This document shows positions 6,528 through 25,590 of a stretch of DNA of 64,000 nucleotides, piece by piece. Each line of letters begins with the position of its first letter. Position 1 is the first letter of the stretch. Source of the DNA: Bacillota bacterium (GTDB lineage Bacteria; Bacillota; Limnochordia; DTU087); assembly GCA_012798695.1 (NCBI GenBank), contig JAAZMR010000117.1, positions 1-64,000 on the forward strand, written 5' to 3'. The notes below the pieces were generated by a model. The model made no database searches. It worked only from the letters and a program-made list of their open reading frames with translations, and was not told the origin of the DNA. The translations under genes were made by a program, and so were the position numbers.

Positions 6528-7631
6528 TCACGGAGTTCGCACAGGCATGACTACATATATGTAATCATCACTATCTGCCGGCCGAATAGTACCAGGGTTT
6601 AGCCCACTAGATACGCCGATTTTCGCTTGATCGGTGCCAATAGTCTTGAGCATGTCGAGCAGAAAACGAGCCTGGAAAGCACTTTTTACCATGGGTCCAT
6701 TCTGCTCAATGGAGAGTGACTCTTCTGACTCTCCCAGTTCCACATCTCGAGATTCCAGTCTCAGTATACCCTCCTGTACATCAAAGGTAACAATGGCCGG
6801 CGCTTTCTTACTCATCAAATTGGCTCGTTCTAAAGCAGCACTCAGTTCCTGACAAGACACAATCACTTCAGTCTCTGTACTAGCTGGTATGACTCTATTG
6901 TAATCGGGATATTGTCCTTCCAAGAGACGAGATACTAAAACTATGTCCTCTAGTTTGAATACTGCCTGGTTGCCCATCAGAGCTAGCTCCACCATAGATT
7001 CAGAGTCTGATGGTAGAATACGCTGCAGCTCCGTACAGGTACGGGCTGGTAGGATTAGGCTGAAATTCGTTTCGCCAGGCAGCGACTGACGATTGAAACA
7101 TAGGCGGCTGGTATCTGTAGCCACTAGTCTGAGTTCGCCATCAACGTATTCCATCAATACTCCAGCAAACACGCTGTGCCCCTGCTCCCTGCGGGCAGCA
7201 TATACCGTCTGGCGAATCATCTTGCCTAGGAGTTGGCCGGGAATTTGCAGCAGCGGTTGCTGTTCGGCCACTGTTAAGCTAGGAAATTGATCAGCCACCA
7301 TCGTTTGTAATCTAAAGTTGCCACAGCCAGCGGTAATCTCCAGCATCTGCTGTTCCTGAAGCTCCTTAAAGACAATCTCTCCAGGAGGTAAACGGCGTAC
7401 CAGGGGGACAAAATGCTTCGCTTCTATTACCACACTCCCTGGTTGAACGCTCTCCACTTTTGTATATGCTTCCATTCCGATTTCCGTATCGGTAGCCCTC
7501 AAGGTAAGGAGCCCGTCCTCGCATCTCATATAAATGCCGGTGAGTATCGGATTCGTATCTCGAGTTGCTACAGCTTTATCCACCATGTCAAGACAACGTA
7601 GCACTTCCCCCTGTGTGCCTATAAATTGCAT
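6528..7631 (-). CDS. dnaN: DNA polymerase III sliding clamp (beta)
   Basis: This ring-shaped processivity factor tethers the polymerase to DNA. The sequence runs from MQFIGTQGEVLRCLDMVDKA through three clamp repeats to the family C-terminus (YIYVVMPVRTP). I placed the start at the ATG at 7631 (367 aa), which has a perfect AGGAGG eight bases upstream and gives the usual length. The open frame extends 60 codons further upstream, but that extension crosses the DnaA-box cluster and looks non-coding. It follows dnaA after about 290 bases. Confidence 0.97.
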   Translation of the reverse strand: MQFIGTQGEVLRCLDMVDKAVATRDTNPILTGIYMRCEDGLLTLRATDTEIGMEAYTKVESVQPGSVVIEAKHFVPLVRRLPPGEIVFKELQEQQMLEITAGCGNFRLQTMVADQFPSLTVAEQQPLLQIPGQLLGKMIRQTVYAARREQGHSVFAGVLMEYVDGELRLVATDTSRLCFNRQSLPGETNFSLILPARTCTELQRILPSDSESMVELALMGNQAVFKLEDIVLVSRLLEGQYPDYNRVIPASTETEVIVSCQELSAALERANLMSKKAPAIVTFDVQEGILRLESRDVELGESEESLSIEQNGPMVKSAFQARFLLDMLKTIGTDQAKIGVSSGLNPGTIRPADSDDYIYVVMPVRTP

Positions 7632-7679
7632 TAGCGTATTCCTCCTGTTGACAAAGTTGTGCATGGAGCCTGAATAAAT

Positions 7680-7878
7680 TGTGGACAAGTCATATGCCCC
7701 TGCTAGTGTGTGGAGATGTGGATAAACCTTGCTTTGCCCTCCACAGCTTACTAACACCCATTTACCCCTTCTTGACAGGTCTTTAAGTGATTTTCCACAT
7801 TTCCACAGCACCTACTACTATGACTACGATCCTAGATCTATATAGATCAGAGCAAGAAAATCTCAAATCCTATCCACA
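7680..7878. other. DnaA-box cluster between dnaN and dnaA
   Basis: Five DnaA-box-like nonamers lie in the dnaA-dnaN gap. One is perfect: TGTGGATAA at 7717-7725. The others are near-matches: TGTGGACAA 7680-7688, TTTTCCACA 7791-7799, ATTTCCACA 7799-7807 and CTATCCACA 7870-7878. B. subtilis has a similar split arrangement, with boxes upstream of dnaA and between dnaA and dnaN. Here this could be the second half of a bipartite origin or a titration/autoregulation site. Confidence 0.7.
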
Positions 7879-7918: not shown

Positions 7919-9319
7919 CTACGAATTGCGCAGCTCCTGGATGAGTTGGTTGATCTCCTTCTGTAGGCTGGGGTTTTTCTGTAACATGCGCTGAATCTTG
8001 TCATAGCCGTGTAAGACAGTAGTATGGTCACGCCCCCCGAACTCCTCGCCAATACGAGGCAAAGAGGCATCAGTCAATTCTCGAGCCAGGTACATCGCCA
8101 CCTGACGGGGAAAGGTCACTACTCGGGTGCGCTTTTTACTTTGCATATCCACCACTTTGATCGAGTAGTGATTTGCCACTACACTCTGGATCATATCAAT
8201 AGTAATCTGTCTCTGGCGGGCAGAACCGACAATGTCTTTCAGCGCTTCTTCTGCTACTTCTACACTGATTTCGCGGCGGCTTAAAGAAGCTACAGCGACT
8301 ACCCGATTTAACGCCCCTTCCAGTTCCCGAATATTGGAATGAATGCGATTAGCAATGTAACTGAGTACTTCTTCAGGTACCTCTAAACGATCGCTGGCCG
8401 CTTTCTTCCGCAAAATAGCAATCCGCGTTTCCAGGTCAGGTGGTTGGATATCAGTAGTCAGCCCCCATTCAAATCGGGAACGCAACCGCTCTTCCAAAGT
8501 AGGTATCTCCTTAGGTGGACGGTCACTGGACATCACAATTTGCTTATTGGACTCATAGAGGGCGTTGAAAGTATGAAAAAACTCCTCTTGAGTGCTCTCC
8601 TTACCTGCAACAAACTGGATATCATCGACTAAGAGGACATCCACATTGCGATATTGATCCCGAAATTCAACCATTGCTTTCTTGCCTATGGCATTAATTA
8701 AATCATTGGTAAATTTTTCCGAAGAAACATAAACCACTTTCGAACGAGGATTATGTTCTATGGCATAATGACCGATCGCTTGCATTAAGTGGGTCTTGCC
8801 TAGACCTACCCCACCATAAATGAATAACGGATTATATGCCCGAGCCGGAGCCTCGGCAACTGCTAATGATGCTGCGTGAGCAAAGCGATTGCTGTTACCC
8901 ACTACAAAAGTATCAAAGGTATATCTGGGATTGAGTATCCCTGGTAGTACTTCGTCTTGAACAGTGGGCATTTCTAGTGTATGGGGATCTGACTCCGGTG
9001 CAGCTAGTACAGCTGGTGTCACTGCAGTGCCTGGTGATTCATTTCTGGTTGGTACATCTAGTAAGGGGGTCCCAGGAAGAACGAATTCCAACCGCCATTC
9101 CTGACCTACCATTGTTTGAAGAGCTTGCTGCATAGGTTCTCTATAGCGAGAATCTACCCAATCTTTAGCAAATTCATTGGCTATGCGCACATATAGTACA
9201 TTATTGGCTAATGTCAGGGGGCGGGTCCCCTTTAACCAAGTATTGAAACTAGACTGAGGCATCAAGGGTTCTATGCGGGAGAGAGTCTCTTCCCATATAG
9301 AAGCCAGGTTGTCTTGCAT
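7919..9319 (-). CDS. dnaA: Chromosomal replication initiator DnaA
   Basis: This AAA+ initiator binds DnaA boxes and melts oriC. The 466 residues show an N-terminal interaction domain (1-75), a variable linker (about 85-130), Walker A GGVGLGKT at 169-176, Walker [10 protein letters not shown] near 230, and the C-terminal helix-turn-helix signature [11 protein letters not shown] near residue 440. The ATG at 9319 has AGGAGG eight bases upstream. DnaA boxes flank it on both sides: the cluster at 7680-7878 downstream, and the larger one beyond the neighbouring GHKL gene. Confidence 0.98.
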
Positions 9320-9375
9320 GCCGGACTCCTCCTGACAAAGAAAAAAACTAGCTGAGCCTGTATAGCTATGCTGCC

Positions 9376-10347
9376 TTACACACTCAACGCAGCGATTACG
9401 CGCGCTCCAAACGGGGTAAGGCTTCGTTTACCGTTCGCGTCCGCTTGGACTAACCCCATTTCTTCCAGTATGACTAGATCCCGAAATGCAGTACTGATGG
9501 ACATATCTAGTTCGGTGGATGCAGTGGATGGACCAACTTCGCCCAAGTCGGCCACGAGAAAAAGCACTCTTCGCTGCCGCCTAGATAGTTTGGTTTCCAG
9601 ATCGGAAAGGGCCTCCGCTACGGCAGGGCCCTGCATGTTCAGCTGTGTCGATTCAGCCCCATTTCGTTGGTCGGGGTCAGTCTCCGAATCAGTGCTGCGC
9701 AGGTAAATATATTCGGTTCCCTCGGGGTGATCTCCTGCCTTAGCGGTAGCATTTTCCTCCGGTATATCTATTGGAAACTCCTGCTCAGCAGCAATTGCCC
9801 CATCTTCTAGCAGGTCGGCATCTTGCACCTCCATTCCGGCCGGAACTTCCACTAAGGCGGTGGCCACAGTCCCTCCAGTGAGATTGTTTGCTAGGATCAA
9901 CTGTCCACCAACGGCTGTAATCAGCTGATGGGCCAATGGGAGACCGGTACCAGCCCCTCGCACAAGTGACCGATATCGTGATGGAGGCTTGCCATAATAG
10001 CCAAAGAGTAATGCATCATGTTTGTTAGGGATTCCTGGGCCATGATCACTGACAGTTAGTTGATTGCCATCAGCTGAAATAGTGATCACGCTTCCCTTGA
10101 ACTCAGCATGGGCGAGATTGGTGATTAGCTCAGTAGCGACTATGGTAGGAATTACAGAACGTTTGTTCCTTAAAATGCGGCAGGTAGCGGCGATTAGATT
10201 CTCTAGAAAACGTGTTGGCACAGTATCCTCAATGGTGACAACCGTGGGCAGCTCGCTTTCTGATTCCTGATATGCCAAAAGAGCCTGCAGACTCGTCTCG
10301 GTCGAACCAGCAGGTGTTTCACGGCGACTTTTAAAGAGTCTTATCAA
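9376..10347 (-). CDS. GHKL ATPase with C-terminal winged helix, next to oriC
   Basis: This 323-residue protein has a GHKL (histidine-kinase-like) ATP fold. The N box has Glu73 and Asn77 ([10 protein letters not shown]), the G1 box is DHGPGIP at 101-107, and the G2 box is [10 protein letters not shown] at 131-140. There is no histidine phospho-acceptor/dimerisation domain and no membrane segment, so it is not an ordinary sensor kinase. It resembles the anti-sigma-factor/Ser-Thr-kinase type. An acidic linker (about 170-240) leads to a winged-helix-like end (about 245-323; [33 protein letters not shown]). The start is TTG at 10347 with AAGGAGGT nine bases upstream. It lies between oriC and dnaA and reads into dnaA, so it may be co-transcribed. 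I do not recognise a named family; a role in replication or origin-linked regulation is inference from position. Confidence 0.8.
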
Positions 10348-10440
10348 TAAACGCTACCTCCTTTTCATGTCATACTGGCCAGGTGAAAAAAGGAGACTTG
10401 AAAAACGAAAAGCCCAGTTCAAGACTATATGTAGTAGGCA

Positions 10441-10778
10441 TGTGCATAACCTGTGGATTAAAGCTAACTCAGGTAACCACAGGGTTTCCCCAGAGTTTAC
10501 CACAGGGATCATACTTCGACAGTTTTGGAGGAAATCCTTGTGGTGTGTGGATTGATTAAGAACGAATAAGAATGCGATGTGGGGATATCCACAGTATCAA
10601 CAGGTTTTCCACAGTCGGTGACTGTGGATAGAAAATTAACCGGTATTCCCCAAAAGTTATCCTCAGAGTCCACAGGTTATCCACAACCAGCGGAGGGAGA
10701 AGGATGGCGGTGAGCTGGGTTTTTCGGTGCCTAGAATGAAAGGGCAAGGCGTCTAGCTGGGGGAATGGGTTATCCACA
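10441..10778. other. oriC: Predicted replication origin oriC (DnaA-box cluster)
   Basis: Two perfect DnaA boxes, TTATCCACA at 10677-10685 and 10770-10778, stand among at least seven near-matches: TGTGCATAA 10441, TGTGGATTA 10452, TGTGGATTG 10546, ATATCCACA 10585, TTTTCCACA 10605, TGTGGATAG 10623 and TTATCCTCA 10657. Boxes occur in both orientations. Gene direction switches from minus to plus across this region, as expected for a bidirectional origin in the rpmH-dnaA interval. Confidence 0.88.
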
Positions 10779-11049
10779 GGTCTTTTTGAAAAGCACTGTT
10801 GATGGGGATCGCACGGTTGCCCCGAATGTGCTTAGAGTTTATGGGAGATTAGAAATGAGATAGCACATAATAAGATGAAGGCATAAGGGAAATGTAGAGG
10901 TGCCCTGGATGTGGAGAGGACTCTCTGGAGGGAACCAGGGGTCAAAGTTTACAGGGAAAAGTCAGGGCGGCACATGAGGGTCTTATCCCATTAAAGGAAG
11001 GCAGGTGACAACCCATGCTGCTTGGTGGTTATGCATCAGCTGCCTAGGG

Positions 11050-11079
11050 TTGACAGGGCAAAGAAGAGCTTGCTATAAT
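11050..11079 (+). promoter_or_regulatory. Sigma-A promoter of rpmH
   Basis: A consensus TTGACA (11050-11055), an 18-base spacer and a consensus TATAAT (11074-11079) lie about 108 bases before the rpmH start. Both hexamers are perfect, suggesting a strong promoter driving the rpmH-rnpA-yidD-yidC-jag operon. Confidence 0.8.
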
Positions 11080-11187
11080 CGGGATGATATATGTCGAGAT
11101 GATAACCTGAGCAGGTAGGATTTGATGCTGCGGCAATCAGGGAAATAGGCGATAAGTTGAAGGTGTAAGTAGGGAGGTGGCGAAGGT

Positions 11188-11322
11188 ATGAAACGGACCT
11201 ATCAGCCGAATCGGCGGCGGAGGAAGAGGAATCATGGTTTTCGGGCGCGGATGAGAACAAAAGCCGGTCGCAAGGTACTAAGACGGCGGCGGAGCAGAGG
11301 AAGAAGAGTTCTTTCTGCCTAG
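11188..11322 (+). CDS. rpmH: 50S ribosomal protein L34
   Basis: This 44-residue, very arginine-rich protein starts [20 protein letters not shown] and ends with [13 protein letters not shown], the usual L34 pattern. An AGGGAGGTGG ribosome site precedes the ATG at 11188. L34 is a small component of the large ribosomal subunit and is nearly always encoded beside rnpA at the origin, as here; rnpA begins 17 bases downstream. Confidence 0.97.
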
Positions 11323-14768: not shown

Positions 14769-16685
14769 GTGGATGCATTATACGAATATGACGTGATTGT
14801 GGTCGGTGGTGGGCACGCTGGTTGTGAAGCAGCCTTGGCCGCTGCTCGCCTCGGATGTCGTACTGCCCTGGTTACGATGAACATAGATAGTATAGCCCAG
14901 CTTTCCTGTAATCCGGCCATTGGTGGGCCTGCAGCCAAGAGTCATCTCGTGCGGGAGATCGATGCTTTGGGTGGCGTCATGGGACGGATTATCGATCAGT
15001 CCTATATCAATATTAGGATGCTGAATTTGTCCCGAGGGCCCTCCGTACATGCTTTGCGGGCTCAGGCAGATAAGCGCTTATATCAGAGGACGATGATTCG
15101 CACTCTAGAGAACCAGCCAGGCCTGGACGTAAAGCAAGGCATAGTTACTGATATAATTGTCGATGATGGTCGGATTTGGGGAATCAGAACCAAGATGGGT
15201 GCAGCCATGCGGGCGAAGACAGTAATTCTGTGTACCGGTACGTTTTTGGGTGGATGTGTGGTCGTAGGTGAGATTCAGTATCCAGGCGGTCGTCAAGGTG
15301 AGCCGGGGGCACCGGAGTTATCCCGGAGCCTGGAGAGTGCCGGTTTTCATCTGCGACGGTTTCAGACAGCAACTCCACCTCGACTTGACCGAAGAAGTGT
15401 GGATTTCACCAAACTGATAGAGCAAAAGGGTGCGGAGAGACCATTACGATTTTCTTTCTGGGAACCACGACGAGAAATCCAACAAATGTCCTGCTGGTTG
15501 ACTGCTACGAATGCACAGACTATCGATGTAGTCAGGGATAACCTACATCGGTCACCGATTCAAACGGGGCTGGTGTCGACCAAAGGACCCCATTTCTGTC
15601 CATCCATAGATCGCAAGGTAATGCGGTTTCCTGACAAGGTGGATCACCAGATCTTCCTTGAACCGGAAGGAGAGGAAACCACTGAACTCTATGTATTGGG
15701 GCTGACTACCAGTATGCCAGAGGATGTACAGTTGGCCTTGCTGAGAACTATACCGGGACTGGAGAATGTGAAGATTATGCGACCTGCTTATGCAGTTGAG
15801 TATGATTTCATTGATCCATGGCAGGTAAAGCCATCTATGGAAAGTAAGCTGGTAGCAGGATTATTTACGGCGGGACAGATCAATGGAACGTCGGGGTATG
15901 AAGAAGCAGCTGCCCAAGGTATCATGGCGGGGATCAATGCAGCCCGCTTTATGCGTGGGTTACCTCCCTTTGAGTTGAGTCGGAGAGAGGCATATATTGG
16001 GGTCTTGATAGACGATTTAGTCACTAAGGGTGTGGAAGAACCCTATCGGATGATGACTTCTAGAGCGGAGTACCGAGTGAGTTTACGGCAGGATAATGCC
16101 GACTTGCGGTTGGCTGATTTTGGCTATCGTTTAGGGATGCTATCTGAAGTAGAATACCGCCGATTTGAGGAAAAGCGACAGAGTATCAGAAACGAGGTCG
16201 CTCGGTTGCAGGGAATTAGGGTTACCCCTACCGCGTCAGTACGGGAGGCGTTAATAAGGATGGGGAGTGGTGACCTGGCGAAGCCGGTTAGTGCGGCTGA
16301 TATCCTGCAGCGGCCAGAACTATCTTATGCAGATTTGGCCAAGGTGGGAGTGGAGATGAGGAGCCTGCCTTGGGAAGTAAGGCAGCAGGTAGAGATCGAG
16401 GTGAAGTTTGCCGGTTATCTGGCCCGAGAAAAGCGTCAGATGGCCGGTGTAGCTCGATTAGAAGCACAGAAAATTCCCGTGGGTACAGATTTCGGTCAGG
16501 TCATGGGGCTGAGATCGGAAGCGGTAGAGCTTTTGAGGAAGATTCAGCCGCTATCTATTGGCCAAGCGGCGCGGATACCAGGGATAAACCCTGGTGATGT
16601 CTCTATATTACAGGTATGGTTGGCACAAAAGGGCAAAGGACAGCAGATGGCCGTTCAGGGCCGGGTTGGCAAGTCTTCAAGGTAG
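14769..16685 (+). CDS. mnmG: MnmG paralogue 1 (tRNA U34 modification, divergent)
   Basis: This is a 638-residue FAD protein of the MnmG/GidA family. The dinucleotide motif [19 protein letters not shown] is at 11-29. The two cysteines of the family are kept: Cys47 in SCNPAIGG and Cys277 in HFCPSIDRK. Deviations occur in otherwise conserved segments: GGPAAKSHL instead of the usual G-x-AKG form, and [10 protein letters not shown] instead of KTGTPPR. The TSRAEYR motif is intact. The C-terminal helical domain that contacts MnmE is present ([12 protein letters not shown] through [12 protein letters not shown]). The start at 14769 is an in-frame GTG. It follows mnmE directly and precedes a second mnmG by nine bases. 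Confidence 0.9.
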
Positions 16686-16694
16686 GGATGAGCG

Positions 16695-18596
16695 GTGGAT
16701 AATTTCGATGTAATCGTCATAGGGGCTGGTCATGCTGGGTGTGAAGCGGCATTAGCGACTGCTCGCATGGGGTTTCGCACCGTAGTATTTGCGCTCGCTT
16801 TAGACAGTGTTGCTTTGATGCCATGCAATCCGTCTATTGGAGGCCCAGGCAAGGCGCAGCTGGTGAGAGAGATCGATGCCTTAGGTGGAGAAATGGGGCG
16901 TAATACAGATTATGCCTATATGCATATTCGGGTACTGAATACAAAGAAAGGCCCAGCAGTTCAGGCCTTGCGCGCTCAAATGGATCGGAAGCTGTATTCG
17001 TGGAGGATGCGGCAGGTGCTGGAGAGTCAGCCCGGTCTTTATCTACAAGAGGGATGTGTAGAAAGTATCGTGGTGCAAGGAGACAAGGTGCGGGGTGTCA
17101 CTCTGCGTACCGGTGAAAGAATCGGCGGCCAGTGCGTGATAGTCGCCAGCGGTACCTATATGAGATCATTGATCCATGTGGGCGAGATCAACTATGAGTC
17201 AGGTCCTCAGTCACAGCAGACTACACATGGGTTGAGCCGAAGCCTGGAAGAGCTGGGCTTTCAGCTTGTACGTTTCAAGACGGGTACGCCGCCCAGGGCC
17301 AATAGTCGTTCCTTAGATTATGATCAAATGACCCGTATGGCAGGGCAACAGGTACACCGCGGATTTTCCTTCCAAGGGCAATTGGAACCTAAGGAGCAGC
17401 TGCCTTGTTGGTTGACATATACGACTCTGAAAACTCATGAGATTATCTCAGCCAATTTAGGTCGCACTGCTTTATATAGTGGGGCGATTGTGGGGATTGG
17501 TCCCCGGTATTGCCCATCATTGGAAAGCAAGATCGTGCAGTTTCCTGATAAGAATTTCCATCAGGTGTTCATAGAGCCAGAAGGGTGGGATACCCAGGAA
17601 GTTTACCTGAGTGGGGTTTCTACTAGTCTCCCGGCCGATGTCCAGATGGAAGTCGTAAGGAGTATTCCAGGGTTAGAGCATGTAGAAATCATGCGGCTTG
17701 CCTATGCTATCGAATATGATTGTTTGGCTCCGCACCAGCTAAAGCTTAATCTGGAGGCAAAGGATATTGAAGGGTTGTATTTTGCTGGCCAGATCAATGG
17801 TAGTTCTGGTTATGAAGAGGCCGCGGCACAGGGGCTGATAGCCGGAATTAACTGTGGGCAGAGGTTGCGAGGTGAACCGCCCTTGATCCTCGGTCGGGAT
17901 CAAGCGTATATCGGAGTCCTCATTGATGATCTAGTGACAAAGACTATTAACGAACCTTATCGGATGATGACTTCACTTGCAGAATATAGGTTACTGCTGC
18001 GGCAAGACAACGCCGATCGCCGATTAGCCCATTTTGGCAGAGAGATAGGGTTGCTTTCAGAAGAGCAATATGACGTGACTCAACAGAGGTGGTCTGCGGT
18101 GGAAAGGGAGATCCAGAGACTCAAGCAGTGGCGGCTGAGCCCCTCGATGGAAGTAAATGCGATTTTGCGGGAGATCGGTAGCACGCCCCTACAGAACGTA
18201 CTTTCAGGAGAGGAACTCCTCCGTAGGCCGGAGATCTCCTATGGTCAGCTAATGGCGTTGGGATGGGATGCTAGTATACAAGATGAGATAGGGAGTCTAG
18301 TGGAGACGGAGATCAAGTACGCTGGTTACATTCGGAAGCAAGAGCGATCTGTGGATAGGTTCCAAAGACTGGAGGCTAGGAAACTACCTGATTGGCTGGA
18401 GTATGGTCAGGTGGAAGGCCTCTCCAAGGAAGCGCAAGAGAAATTGGCGGCAGTGCGGCCAGCCTCATTGGGTCAGGCCTCGCGGATTGCAGGTGTTTCA
18501 CCGGCGGACATATCTGTTTTGATGATTTACCTAGAGCAGCGAGGGCGGCGAAGACAAGTTGGAGGAACAGAACAGGCGAAAGGTGGCCAGGAGTAG
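16695..18596 (+). CDS. mnmG: MnmG paralogue 2 (Bacillus-type MnmG)
   Basis: This second full-length MnmG has 633 residues. By eye it is closer to B. subtilis MnmG than paralogue 1 is: [32 protein letters not shown] and RYCPSLESK are near-identical to the classical sequence. The FAD motif [18 protein letters not shown] is at 9-26, and the conserved cysteines are Cys44 and Cys273. One deviation stands out: the usual TSRAEYR is TSLAEYR. The start at 16695 is GTG. The stop codon is directly followed by the rsmG ATG. The pair could be specialised for different tRNAs, could form a heterodimer with MnmE, or one could have a different function; I cannot tell which. Confidence 0.93.
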   Translation: MDNFDVIVIGAGHAGCEAALATARMGFRTVVFALALDSVALMPCNPSIGGPGKAQLVREIDALGGEMGRNTDYAYMHIRVLNTKKGPAVQALRAQMDRKLYSWRMRQVLESQPGLYLQEGCVESIVVQGDKVRGVTLRTGERIGGQCVIVASGTYMRSLIHVGEINYESGPQSQQTTHGLSRSLEELGFQLVRFKTGTPPRANSRSLDYDQMTRMAGQQVHRGFSFQGQLEPKEQLPCWLTYTTLKTHEIISANLGRTALYSGAIVGIGPRYCPSLESKIVQFPDKNFHQVFIEPEGWDTQEVYLSGVSTSLPADVQMEVVRSIPGLEHVEIMRLAYAIEYDCLAPHQLKLNLEAKDIEGLYFAGQINGSSGYEEAAAQGLIAGINCGQRLRGEPPLILGRDQAYIGVLIDDLVTKTINEPYRMMTSLAEYRLLLRQDNADRRLAHFGREIGLLSEEQYDVTQQRWSAVEREIQRLKQWRLSPSMEVNAILREIGSTPLQNVLSGEELLRRPEISYGQLMALGWDASIQDEIGSLVETEIKYAGYIRKQERSVDRFQRLEARKLPDWLEYGQVEGLSKEAQEKLAAVRPASLGQASRIAGVSPADISVLMIYLEQRGRRRQVGGTEQAKGGQE

Positions 18597-19477: not shown

Positions 19478-19568
19478 GCGTGAGGGCAGGAATGGGAAAG
19501 GGTAAGAGCGAAAGGCTTTAAGAAGGCAATTATGGTGAAATATGAGTGGCTGTGAGGGGAGGAAGAGC

Positions 19569-20474
19569 ATGCGCCTAGGTGATGTCCTACGGGCTAGAAG
19601 TAGAGATTCAGAGGATACGGAGCAAGCTCAAACAGGGGGGACGCCGGAATCTGGGGGTATGGTGGTCGACATTCCCTTAGCGATTATCGAAGCTAATCCG
19701 TTTCAGCCTCGTTCCGGTTTCGATGAAGAGAGTATGAAAGAATTGGCACAATCCCTAGTTGAGCATGGGTTGATTCAACCGGTCATTGTGCGCTCCTGCC
19801 CAGGTGGATATCAGTTGGTGGCAGGAGAACGGCGGGTGCGAGCTGCCCGATATTTGGGTTGGCAGACGATTCCTGCAGTGGTGCGGGAGTTAGATGATGT
19901 AGCGAGCGCGCAAGTGGCCTTGATCGAGAATCTGCAGCGAGAGGATTTGAACTACTGGGAGGAAGCTGAAGCATATCAACGATTATTGCGTGAGTTCAGC
20001 ATGACCCAAGAGGATTTGGCGGAGAAGATCGGCAAGAGTCAATCCGCCATTGCTAATAAGTTGCGGCTCTTGCGGTTAAGTCCCCGAGTGCGGGCGAGTA
20101 TTTCCCGGGAAATAATGTCGGAGCGGCACTGCCGAGCACTGCTGCGTCTCGATTCGGAAGAGGCCCAGCTGCAGGTCATAGAAGCCATAAAGGAGAGACA
20201 TCTTTCTGTAAAGGACACAGAGGAACTAATTCGGCAGCTAAAAGATGGAGGCACACCGAAACAGCCTCGTCAAAGAGTGATACGGCTGTGGAAAGATGCT
20301 CGTCTACTGCAGAACAGTGTGCGGCGGCTAGTGAAGGAAATGCGGGCCGGTGGAGCCGAGGTAGAGCTAGAGGAGACCCAAGAAGAAGATGTGTTAGAGC
20401 TGAGAGTTCGAATTAAGCAGGTGCCGAACACAAAGAGGCCAGATGGTGCGGAACAACAGCCGGAGAGTAGGTGA
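19569..20474 (+). CDS. noc: Nucleoid occlusion protein Noc
   Basis: Noc is a ParB-family CTPase that binds its own DNA sites and blocks division over the nucleoid. The sequence has the CTP-binding region (GERRVRAA, residues 86-93) and the helix-turn-helix near 145-170. Residues at the positions known to separate Noc from ParB fit Noc: Gln158, Lys164 and Arg186 correspond to Q173/K179/R201 in the published comparison. A perfect Noc-binding palindrome lies within this gene (20099-20114). The ATG at 19569 (301 aa) has a GGGGAGGA ribosome site; an earlier ATG at 19542 has none. parA follows after four bases. Confidence 0.9.
   Translation: MRLGDVLRARSRDSEDTEQAQTGGTPESGGMVVDIPLAIIEANPFQPRSGFDEESMKELAQSLVEHGLIQPVIVRSCPGGYQLVAGERRVRAARYLGWQTIPAVVRELDDVASAQVALIENLQREDLNYWEEAEAYQRLLREFSMTQEDLAEKIGKSQSAIANKLRLLRLSPRVRASISREIMSERHCRALLRLDSEEAQLQVIEAIKERHLSVKDTEELIRQLKDGGTPKQPRQRVIRLWKDARLLQNSVRRLVKEMRAGGAEVELEETQEEDVLELRVRIKQVPNTKRPDGAEQQPESR
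20099..20114. promoter_or_regulatory. Noc-binding site (NBS), perfect palindrome
   Basis: TATTTCCCGGGAAATA is a 16-bp perfect palindrome identical to the Noc-binding consensus described in Bacillus. It is inside the noc coding sequence, spanning codons for Ser-Ile-Ser-Arg-Glu-Ile. It could nucleate Noc near the origin or tie noc expression to Noc levels. Confidence 0.75.
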
Positions 20475-20478
20475 GGCT

Positions 20479-21237
20479 ATGGCTATATGCTTAGCGGTAG
20501 TGAACCAAAAGGGCGGAGTGGGCAAAAGCACGACAGCGGTGAACCTGGCAGCTTGTTTGGGAGAGTTGGAGAAGCGGGTACTGCTGGTAGATATTGATCC
20601 CCAGGGTAACGCTAGTAGTGGAGTGGGGATCGAGAAGAATCGAGTGCAAGGCTGCATGTATGACGTCCTAATTGAAGGGCGGGCAATGGCAGAGGTCATT
20701 CAACCAACCGCGATTGCCGGGCTAGATGTAGCCCCAGCGACACTCGATTTGGCAGGAGCCGAGATCGAATTAGTAGCTGCAATGTCTCGTGAGTATCGGT
20801 TAAAGAGCTCATTATCAGGGGTGGAGGGGCGGTATGACTATATCCTGATCGATGCACCTCCATCCTTGGGCTTGCTGACAATTAATGCGCTGAGTGCGGC
20901 GACAGGCGCTTTGGTGCCCATCCAGTGTGAGTACTACGCCCTTGAAGGTGTAAGTCAGCTGATGAGTACTGTAAAACTGGTAAAGGACCATCTTAACCCG
21001 GACTTGGAGATTGGTGGGGTGTTGATGACAATGTATGATGCCCGAACGAACCTTTCTCAACAGGTAGTGGAGGAAGTAAGAGGGTATTTCGGCGACAAGG
21101 TATTTCGGACGATCATACCTAGGAATGTGCGATTGAGTGAAGCGCCTAGCCATGGGCAGCCGATTACCTTGTATGACCAGCAATGTCGGGGGGCTCAAGC
21201 GTATAGGCAGTTGGCTAGGGAGTTGATTGGGACATGA
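20479..21237 (+). CDS. parA: Chromosome partitioning ATPase ParA/Soj
   Basis: This deviant-Walker ATPase acts with ParB in origin segregation and in control of DnaA. The motif KGGVGKST is at residues 11-18, followed by VLLVDIDPQGNAS and YDYILIDAPPSLG. I start at the ATG at 20479 (252 aa), which follows AGGTGAGG and begins MAICLAVVNQKGG, the usual N-terminus. The open frame reaches 12 codons further upstream into noc, without support. The last codon overlaps the parB start by four bases. Confidence 0.96.
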   Translation: MAICLAVVNQKGGVGKSTTAVNLAACLGELEKRVLLVDIDPQGNASSGVGIEKNRVQGCMYDVLIEGRAMAEVIQPTAIAGLDVAPATLDLAGAEIELVAAMSREYRLKSSLSGVEGRYDYILIDAPPSLGLLTINALSAATGALVPIQCEYYALEGVSQLMSTVKLVKDHLNPDLEIGGVLMTMYDARTNLSQQVVEEVRGYFGDKVFRTIIPRNVRLSEAPSHGQPITLYDQQCRGAQAYRQLARELIGT

Positions 21238-22091
21238 GTAGACAGGCATTGGGCAGAGGTCTAAAAGCATTGATCCCACAGGCAGAAGCAGTTCGAGGTG
21301 AAGAGGTAAGACAAGTGCCCGTTAGTGCAATACAGCCAAATCCTTATCAACCCCGGAGGAATTTTGATGAAGAGAGCTTGCGGGAGCTGGCGGCCTCCAT
21401 AAAGGAGAAGGGAGTCTTGCAGCCGGTTACTGTACGAGAGAAGGACGGTGGATTTGAGCTGGTCGCGGGGGAACGCCGTTGGCGAGCAGCTCAGGTGGCT
21501 GGGCTATCGGAGATTCCCGCATTGCTGCGGCAGCTTTCCGATCGGGAAGTTATGGAGATTGCACTGATCGAGAACCTCCAGAGAGAAGATTTGAATCCGA
21601 TTGAAGAAGCTGAGGCCTATGAAGTACTCATGCGTGAGTTCGAGCTTACACAGGAGGACGTAGCGAGAGCTGTAGGTAAAGGGCGGCCCACCATTGCCAA
21701 CCGTCTCCGGTTACTGCGGCTGCCAGCTGCGGTCCGGGAGTGGGTAGCTGACGGGCAGCTCAGTGCAGGCCATGCGAAGATTCTGGTCGTGATGGATGAG
21801 GAGCGGGCAGTAGAATTGGGTCGCCGGTGCGTAGATGAGGGATGGTCCGTACGGCAGTTAGAGGAATTTCTACGGTCCCCCAAGGCTAGGTCTGGCCGCG
21901 GCAGGCAAGTAGTTCAGGTAGAGCGCCAGAACCCACTGATTAGGGAGGTTGAAGAACGACTTCAGGGTGCGTTAGGCACCAAGGTTAAGATCAAGGATAA
22001 AAGGGGTAAGGGTAAGATCGAAGTAGAGTATTACTCTACTGAAGAACTTAACCGTATTTTGGAAGTAATTGCCGGGCAGGCATGGGATTAG
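21234..22091 (+). CDS. parB: Chromosome partitioning protein ParB/Spo0J
   Basis: This CTP-dependent clamp loads at parS and spreads to recruit SMC. The 285 residues contain VAGERRWRAAQVAGL (CTP site), LIENLQREDLNPIEEA, the helix-turn-helix GKGRPTIANRLRLLRL, and a C-terminal dimer domain rich in basic residues. Arg in GKGRPT and Gly in SAGHAK match the ParB rather than the Noc specificity pattern. The ATG overlaps the parA stop codon. Two perfect parS sites lie within 1 kb downstream. Confidence 0.96.
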   Translation: MSRQALGRGLKALIPQAEAVRGEEVRQVPVSAIQPNPYQPRRNFDEESLRELAASIKEKGVLQPVTVREKDGGFELVAGERRWRAAQVAGLSEIPALLRQLSDREVMEIALIENLQREDLNPIEEAEAYEVLMREFELTQEDVARAVGKGRPTIANRLRLLRLPAAVREWVADGQLSAGHAKILVVMDEERAVELGRRCVDEGWSVRQLEEFLRSPKARSGRGRQVVQVERQNPLIREVEERLQGALGTKVKIKDKRGKGKIEVEYYSTEELNRILEVIAGQAWD

Positions 22092-24888: not shown

Positions 24889-25590
24889 TCATTCGCCGGC
24901 AGATGGGGCGACATGGGGACTTGCCCAGTCATTCATGGCGAGCAGGGGAGTTGGGTCTAGCGCTTTCCGGCTTACTACGAGGCTGGGGTAAAAGCATTCC
25001 CAATAGCAGTTTAGTAACCCAGCGATACTATTGCTTATGACATCAGCCATACGTATCACTAAGCTGAGTCGAGTGTTCTGCAAAACGAAGTATTCCATGA
25101 AGCCCCCCACATTGACGACTCCAATAAGATGGGCTGCCCCGACCTCGGCCAAGTTCTTGTTGACACCGGTTCCGGGTTTAAGTGGACCCTCCTTGATACT
25201 GATATATCCAATATTATCACACCTTCCCAGACAGGCATCTAATGCCAATATGTAGGAAGGTGTTGTCTCTTGTTGGAGCATTTGTATATATTCATCGAGG
25301 TTGCCGGCATGTACTGGCTCATCCAATGTACCGAAGACTCTTACTCCGGGAGGCAAGGCGCCCAGGGAGGACAACTTTGATCCCACAAGCGGGCCCAGAC
25401 AATCTCCCGTGGAACGATCGGTACCTATGCAGAGAATCAATAATGGCGTGAATTGTGCATGCAGCCTTGGGTGAAGGAAATCCCACAGACTGCGAGCCAA
25501 TGTTTCAGCGGCGGTTGGATTATCGACATGGACCCGACAGACTACCTCAGTATTGCTGTCGGACTCAGAGGCCTTCGCCAAAATCATCAC
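24889..25590 (-). CDS. yyaC: Spore protease-like protein YyaC
   Basis: The YyaC family is found in spore formers and is related to the germination protease GPR fold. Signatures visible are CIGTDRSTGDCLGPLVGS, LDEPVHAGNL, LDACLG, GPLKPGTGVNKNL and VVNVGGFMEYFVLQNTRLS. At 233 residues it carries a slightly longer N-terminus and C-terminal tail than short homologues. The start is GTG at 25590 or the adjacent ATG at 25587. It is one of very few minus-strand genes on the right arm, transcribed alone against the fork. The exact biochemical role of YyaC is not established. Confidence 0.9.
   Translation of the reverse strand: MMILAKASESDSNTEVVCRVHVDNPTAAETLARSLWDFLHPRLHAQFTPLLILCIGTDRSTGDCLGPLVGSKLSSLGALPPGVRVFGTLDEPVHAGNLDEYIQMLQQETTPSYILALDACLGRCDNIGYISIKEGPLKPGTGVNKNLAEVGAAHLIGVVNVGGFMEYFVLQNTRLSLVIRMADVISNSIAGLLNCYWECFYPSLVVSRKALDPTPLLAMNDWASPHVAPSAGE

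Follow-up and report, generated by a model that had tools for sequence, protein, structure and literature searches.

Among the closest described relatives of the protein reported here are the catalytic domains of histidine kinases (HATPase_c, PF02518), with which it shares the fold and the N, G1 and G2 boxes. The gene lies directly upstream of dnaA in a 64,000-nucleotide stretch of DNA from a Bacillota bacterium, which we call the window (Table 1). The catalytic domains of CpxA, HK853, PhoQ and WalK, together with pyruvate dehydrogenase kinases, are the nearest folds found by Foldseek, and HATPase_c matches all 41 members of the family that were tested. Unlike histidine kinases, the window protein has no DHp/HisKA domain, sensor or membrane part, and it possesses a C-terminal winged helix. 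SpoIIAB and RsbW (HATPase_c_2) are likewise small, soluble GHKL proteins without a phospho-acceptor of their own, but they have no winged helix, and only 5 of the 41 members match HATPase_c_2, even weakly. The top Foldseek match of both structure models that we built is DIP2311 (PDB 3lmm, from structural genomics), which aligns over the GHKL domain and the winged helix (330 and 259 columns). However, identity is 14-15% and the rmsd over the entire alignment 12-15 angstrom, and DIP2311-type proteins are longer, with at least 477 residues and an additional domain that we take to be AlbA_2. We know of no link between DIP2311-type proteins and dnaA. Control of dnaA/oriC activity, the role that we propose for the window protein, is exerted by SeqA, Hda, YabA, Soj, SirA, DnaD, Spo0A and CtrA; to our knowledge none of these contains a GHKL domain or has its gene immediately upstream of dnaA.

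Table 1. Features of the dnaA region of the window
Feature	Coordinates	Strand	Remarks
Second DnaA-box cluster, dnaA-dnaN interval	7576..7878	.	
dnaA	7919..9319	-	Bac_DnaA 2.1e-77, Bac_DnaA_C, DnaA_N
Gap, gene stop to dnaA start	9320..9375	-	56 nt; median in homologous loci 25 nt
GHKL ATPase-winged helix gene	9376..10347	-	323 aa; open reading frame with Shine-Dalgarno sequence; 159 distinct homologues; first gene of presumed dnaA operon
C-terminal winged helix, residues 241-322	9382..9627	-	AlphaFold pLDDT mostly >90; conserved residues
Linker, residues 167-240	9628..9849	-	pLDDT <50 over 182-239, mostly predicted disorder
GHKL ATP-binding domain, residues 20-166	9850..10290	-	HATPase_c 1.3e-11; AlphaFold confident; Foldseek finds histidine-kinase catalytic domains
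G2 box GAGTGLP, residues 131-137	9937..9957	-	G131 157/158, G133 157/158, G135 158/158
G1 box DHGPGIP, residues 101-107	10027..10047	-	D101, G103, G105 157/157
N box, Glu73 to Asn77	10117..10131	-	E 152/157, N 157/157 aligned homologues
Second TGAAAAG (lead)	10361..10367	-	overlaps the gene's Shine-Dalgarno sequence; may simply be the ribosome-binding site
Upstream DnaA-box cluster	10441..10778	.	eight sites, <=1 mismatch to TTATCCACA
TGAAAAG heptamer (lead)	10787..10793	+	adjoins DnaA box 10770-10778; candidate recognition word

A preliminary description of this locus, made from the DNA letters, had reported an open reading frame of 323 residues with a full GHKL ATP site (Glu73/Asn77, DHGPGIP, GAGTGLP), no phospho-acceptor domain and a C-terminal winged helix, and each of these elements is borne out. 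The gene is on the minus strand, co-oriented with dnaA, and begins with a TTG codon behind a good Shine-Dalgarno sequence, AAGGAGGT. Pfam HATPase_c covers residues 70-166 with 45.3 bits against a cut-off of 26.4, and the ATP-site motifs are found at the residues first quoted. AlphaFold, supplied with a 41-sequence alignment, predicts two confident domains, GHKL and winged helix, joined by a disordered linker whose length differs among homologues; two N-terminal strands precede the GHKL core in the model. A compact homologue of 248 residues is again modelled as two domains, whose mutual placement is not settled at a pTM of 0.61. The HisKA/DHp phospho-acceptor domain has no profile match in the window protein or among the families listed for the 41 members, and the DHp helical hairpin is absent from both AlphaFold models. 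At the C-terminus, where the evidence for a winged helix comes from structure prediction, several winged-HTH models of Pfam match residues 255-320 below cut-off (HVO_A0261_N at 3.1e-5, HTH_IclR, DeoR, ArsR), none of the Pfam HTH models reaching its own cut-off in the window protein, and weak HTH profile matches recur in this part of most of the 41 members. No Pfam or NCBIfam model spans the whole protein.

The N, G1 and G2 boxes that characterize the GHKL domain of histidine kinases are all present and nearly invariant among the aligned homologues. In the winged helix, S283, T286, R289 and L294 and the GKR wing are retained in most homologues, across phyla, so that both the predicted fold and a conserved recognition helix (S283/T286/R289) are as expected of a winged-helix regulator. 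Within the window's family the winged helix is conserved no less than the ATP site, and dN/dS values of 0.16-0.22 indicate purifying selection. Near-invariant residues and structure prediction together support an architecture that would combine ATP binding with DNA binding. Position 73 is occupied by Ala in four homologues. In L015, L016 and L017 (family f6), where Ala replaces the N-box Glu73, ATP may be bound but hardly hydrolysed.

Is the association with dnaA a peculiarity of the window or a property of the family? Homologues were searched genome-wide, unrestricted by position, and after removal of copies the matches listed comprise 159 distinct two-domain homologues from Bacillota and Actinomycetota. 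In 150 of these the gene is followed directly by a co-oriented dnaA, at a median distance of 25 nt, and the two reading frames often overlap or nearly so. The remaining nine lie on stretches that stop less than 150 nt from the gene, seven of them being chromosomes that start with dnaA; L004 abuts the end of its contig, and in L113 the gene is cut in two, its other half sitting beside dnaA on a different contig. The preliminary description had held that homologues scattered away from dnaA would tell against it; among the matches listed, no full-length homologue away from dnaA was found in 159. Four single-domain GHKL matches taken as negative controls (L269-L272) are not near dnaA, and other single-domain GHKL proteins of these genomes, several of a SpoIIAB-like size of ~140-160 aa, are encoded away from it where checked. 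The loci inspected (30 of the Bacillota-phylum set, 42 mostly from Actinomycetota and a further 80 stretches) give a consistent picture of linkage to dnaA, as would be looked for in a regulator of dnaA/oriC. Bacillota loci are arranged as divergent rpmH-rnpA-yidD followed by the gene, dnaA, dnaN and recF. In two Actinomycetota (L238 and L276) dnaN and rnpA have changed position and orientation and the gene-dnaA pair is intact; because the pair survives this rearrangement, we regard dnaA, not the neighbourhood as such, as the partner of the gene. Membership of a known anti-sigma/phosphatase module with other partners, also named beforehand as a finding that would overturn the proposal, is rejected: the neighbours are rpmH-rnpA-yidD and dnaA-dnaN-recF, no sigma factor, anti-anti-sigma, receiver or phospho-acceptor gene adjoins in the loci examined, HATPase_c_2 matches are as rare as stated above, and a winged helix is present. 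Among gene-less genomes of the same class with rpmH and dnaA on one stretch, 15 of 17 have an interval of 449-871 nt between the two, the others (L293 and L297) having intervals of 2.5 and 3.4 kb that hold other content. The plain interval in gene-less genomes therefore shows that the gene was either gained or lost, and that it is not a stretch of origin misinterpreted as a gene.

The distribution of the gene is wide and patchy. In a first search, of 41 genomes, each of the 10 other genomes from the window's family yielded an orthologue (47-74% identity; the one in G002 is truncated by the end of its contig), and two further families of the class yielded full-length homologues. All of these have dnaA immediately downstream wherever the contig extends far enough. 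Searching contigs of named genomes added two-domain homologues, again upstream of dnaA, from Bacillota and Actinomycetota (Thermoleophilia, Gaiellales, Candidatus Hakubella and others). Of 399 genomes sampled from the window's phylum, 40 encode a two-domain homologue, a count that leaves out 12 further matches near 1e-13 that are single-domain; a match with E <=4e-24 was obtained in 158 of 397 sampled Actinomycetota genomes, for which gene positions cover the matches listed. One match was obtained in 251 Chloroflexota genomes (L305), with dnaA adjacent. The gene was found in none of 148 genomes of the class Actinomycetes, to which Glycomyces belongs, and in none of 150 genomes of Pseudomonadota, the phylum of Rubrivivax. 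Most families of its own class lack it, as do entire classes, so that DnaA-driven initiation can generally proceed without it. A position upstream of dnaA is unusual against textbook maps, yet it is the normal order in several lineages. In a DnaA tree of 93 loci the Actinomycetota form one side of a fully supported branch; for the gene itself a split between Actinomycetota and Bacillota is not rejected (p-AU 0.43), and a quick topology is not clean. These trees are compatible with old co-inheritance with dnaA and repeated loss, and an early transfer of the origin region could also have given rise to such a distribution.

Eggerthella and Atopobium include carriers from the human gut and mouth, E. 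lenta among them. The carriers with published genomes include Eggerthella lenta, Atopobium parvulum and Cryptobacterium curtum (G811, G860 and G495; PMC3035228, PMC3035223, PMC3035227). The suggestion, made when the locus was first described, that the gene might couple sporulation signals to initiation is disfavoured, because E. lenta carries the gene and is non-sporulating (PMC3035228); many other Actinomycetota carry it as well. The window also encodes a YyaC spore-protease family protein (24889-25590, minus strand; TIGR02841, 4.2e-57), from which its organism is probably an endospore former, a trait that not every carrier of the GHKL gene has to share.

What, then, might the protein do? We propose that it binds both ATP and DNA and serves as a nucleotide-switched regulator dedicated to the dnaA operon and its origin, a reading that we judge to be poised evenly between right and wrong. 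It is the simplest one because it accommodates a complete ATP site, no phospho-acceptor, a DNA-binding fold and first place in a presumed dnaA operon. The winged helix would bind DNA in the rpmH-to-gene interval, where the upstream DnaA boxes and the presumed operon promoter lie, while the GHKL domain would bind ATP or ADP through its N, G1 and G2 boxes. The nucleotide state would toggle DNA binding, probably by dimerization or lid closure, and in this way the protein would adjust DnaA supply and/or origin firing to the energy state of the cell or to the signal of a partner.

Several GHKL proteins are kinases, not DNA-binding switches. The main rival to our model is a kinase-type switch that, in the manner of SpoIIAB/RsbW or of a histidine-kinase catalytic domain working in trans, would phosphorylate DnaA or a partner or keep it sequestered; the winged helix would then mediate protein contact or hold the protein at the origin. 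The nearest folds are of this kind, and the N-box Glu, the usual general base, is kept in all but a few homologues. We nevertheless consider a kinase unlikely in view of the scarcity of HATPase_c_2 matches, the lack of a sigma factor, anti-anti-sigma, receiver or phospho-acceptor neighbour, the homologues with Ala73 and a winged helix conserved at least as well as the ATP site in the window's family. It is likewise improbable that the protein is an ordinary one-component regulator of other genes, kept by dnaA for the timing of its expression or for near-origin dosage. Many winged-helix regulators control distant genes, linkage to dnaA alone is silent on the regulated target, and membership of the dnaA operon would couple the level of the protein to the replication cycle; still, the tie to dnaA itself, with its short or overlapping junctions and its survival of dnaN and rnpA moves, exceeds what location or dosage would demand. 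GHKL clamps act on DNA, and a clamp ATPase like GyrB, MutL or Hsp90, whose ATP-bound dimer would remodel origin DNA or a DnaA-DNA complex instead of acting on transcription, would suit the location of the gene at the origin and the pair of N-terminal strands that precede the GHKL core. We think this quite improbable, as no recognisable transducer domain follows the GHKL domain, its place being taken by the linker and winged helix, the folds match the histidine-kinase type and HATPase_c_3 is matched by only 5 of 41 members. Passive synteny, in which an old neighbour without origin function was co-inherited with dnaA since origin regions seldom rearrange, can appeal to rpmH, rnpA, yidD, yidC, dnaN and recF as similarly conserved neighbours that are not all initiation regulators, but it is very hard to credit given an operon-like spacing, a gene-dnaA unit that persists where dnaN and rnpA have moved, and no full-length copy off dnaA among the matches listed despite many relatives that lack the gene.

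If a nucleotide-switched regulator of dnaA is encoded here, the surrounding DNA is where its target would be expected. GC skew changes sign at the gene and origin region, and beyond the upstream boxes lies a divergent rpmH-rnpA-yidD-yidC-jag cluster. DnaA boxes flank the unit of dnaA and the GHKL gene on both sides, and the arrangement is probably a bipartite origin like that of Bacillus subtilis. The gene had been described as wedged between dnaA and oriC, which is right for the upstream boxes and wrong for the second cluster, on the far side of dnaA. Enumeration of gapped dyads in 131 rpmH-to-gene regions yielded no long palindromic operator clearly above shuffles, the best, TTTTC-N20-GAAAA, occurring in 8 loci when shuffled regions gave up to 7. 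A motif obtained by EM was rejected as an operator since it had drifted to the DnaA-box variants TGTGGAAAAC and TGTTGAAAAC. Apart from words belonging to promoters and DnaA boxes, the two approaches brought out no specific operator. The heptamer TGAAAAG/CTTTTCA occurs in 30 of 47 Bacillota origins and 43 of 83 Actinomycetota origins that carry the gene (shuffles predict 7.1 and 12.5), against 5 of 41 and 1 of 24 origins without it (4.9 and 1.0 predicted). These figures are to be read with three points in mind: the word was selected on gene-positive origins, genomes that are related are not independent, and the Actinomycetota controls are GC-rich. The contrast persists when redundant sequences are dropped, and also when overlaps with Shine-Dalgarno sequences are. 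In the window's family TGAAAAG adjoins a DnaA box and sits just ahead of the gene. Since it differs in position and flanks and was singled out post hoc, we do not accept it as an established binding site; it is a lead, a candidate recognition word. The DnaA-trio unwinding element follows a repeated NAN rule (PMC8287927); a trio at the box 10770-10778 is rejected, as the neighbouring TAG is followed by ACG, which breaks the rule. An Rfam scan of 9300-11300 found no RNA element, and a search for a sigma-70 promoter found none for the gene, the sole consensus site being that of rpmH (11050-11079, plus strand).

The anatomy of the protein and its linkage to dnaA define a new protein family, for which the function outlined above is a well-motivated hypothesis, and we regard it as a strong candidate for a controller of the timing of chromosome copying. 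We found no study of this gene in the open-access literature, a coverage outside which most subscription journals and preprints fall. The family may have escaped notice because its members match only generic ATPase models and because the gene is the last of the record when a chromosome is numbered from dnaA. It has long been asked how bacteria link initiation to growth and to their energy state, and a family dedicated to dnaA and equipped with a nucleotide site is a candidate for this connection. More tentatively, with the balance tipping somewhat against, the family could constitute an unrecognised class of initiation regulators, widespread in Actinomycetota other than Actinomycetes and found in several families of Bacillota, in which a GHKL sensor and an origin-binding winged helix couple ATP/ADP state directly to DnaA supply or firing. 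This would be the first known GHKL-based control of bacterial replication initiation; we are aware of no other, nor of any studied control of initiation in the carrier lineages, for example Eggerthella and Atopobium. Elsewhere in the window, Noc-like, ParA-like and ParB-like genes occupy 19542-22091. Two full-length MnmG/GidA genes stand in tandem on the plus strand (14769-16685 and 16695-18596), both far above the NCBIfam mnmG cut-off; mnmG is usually a single-copy gene.
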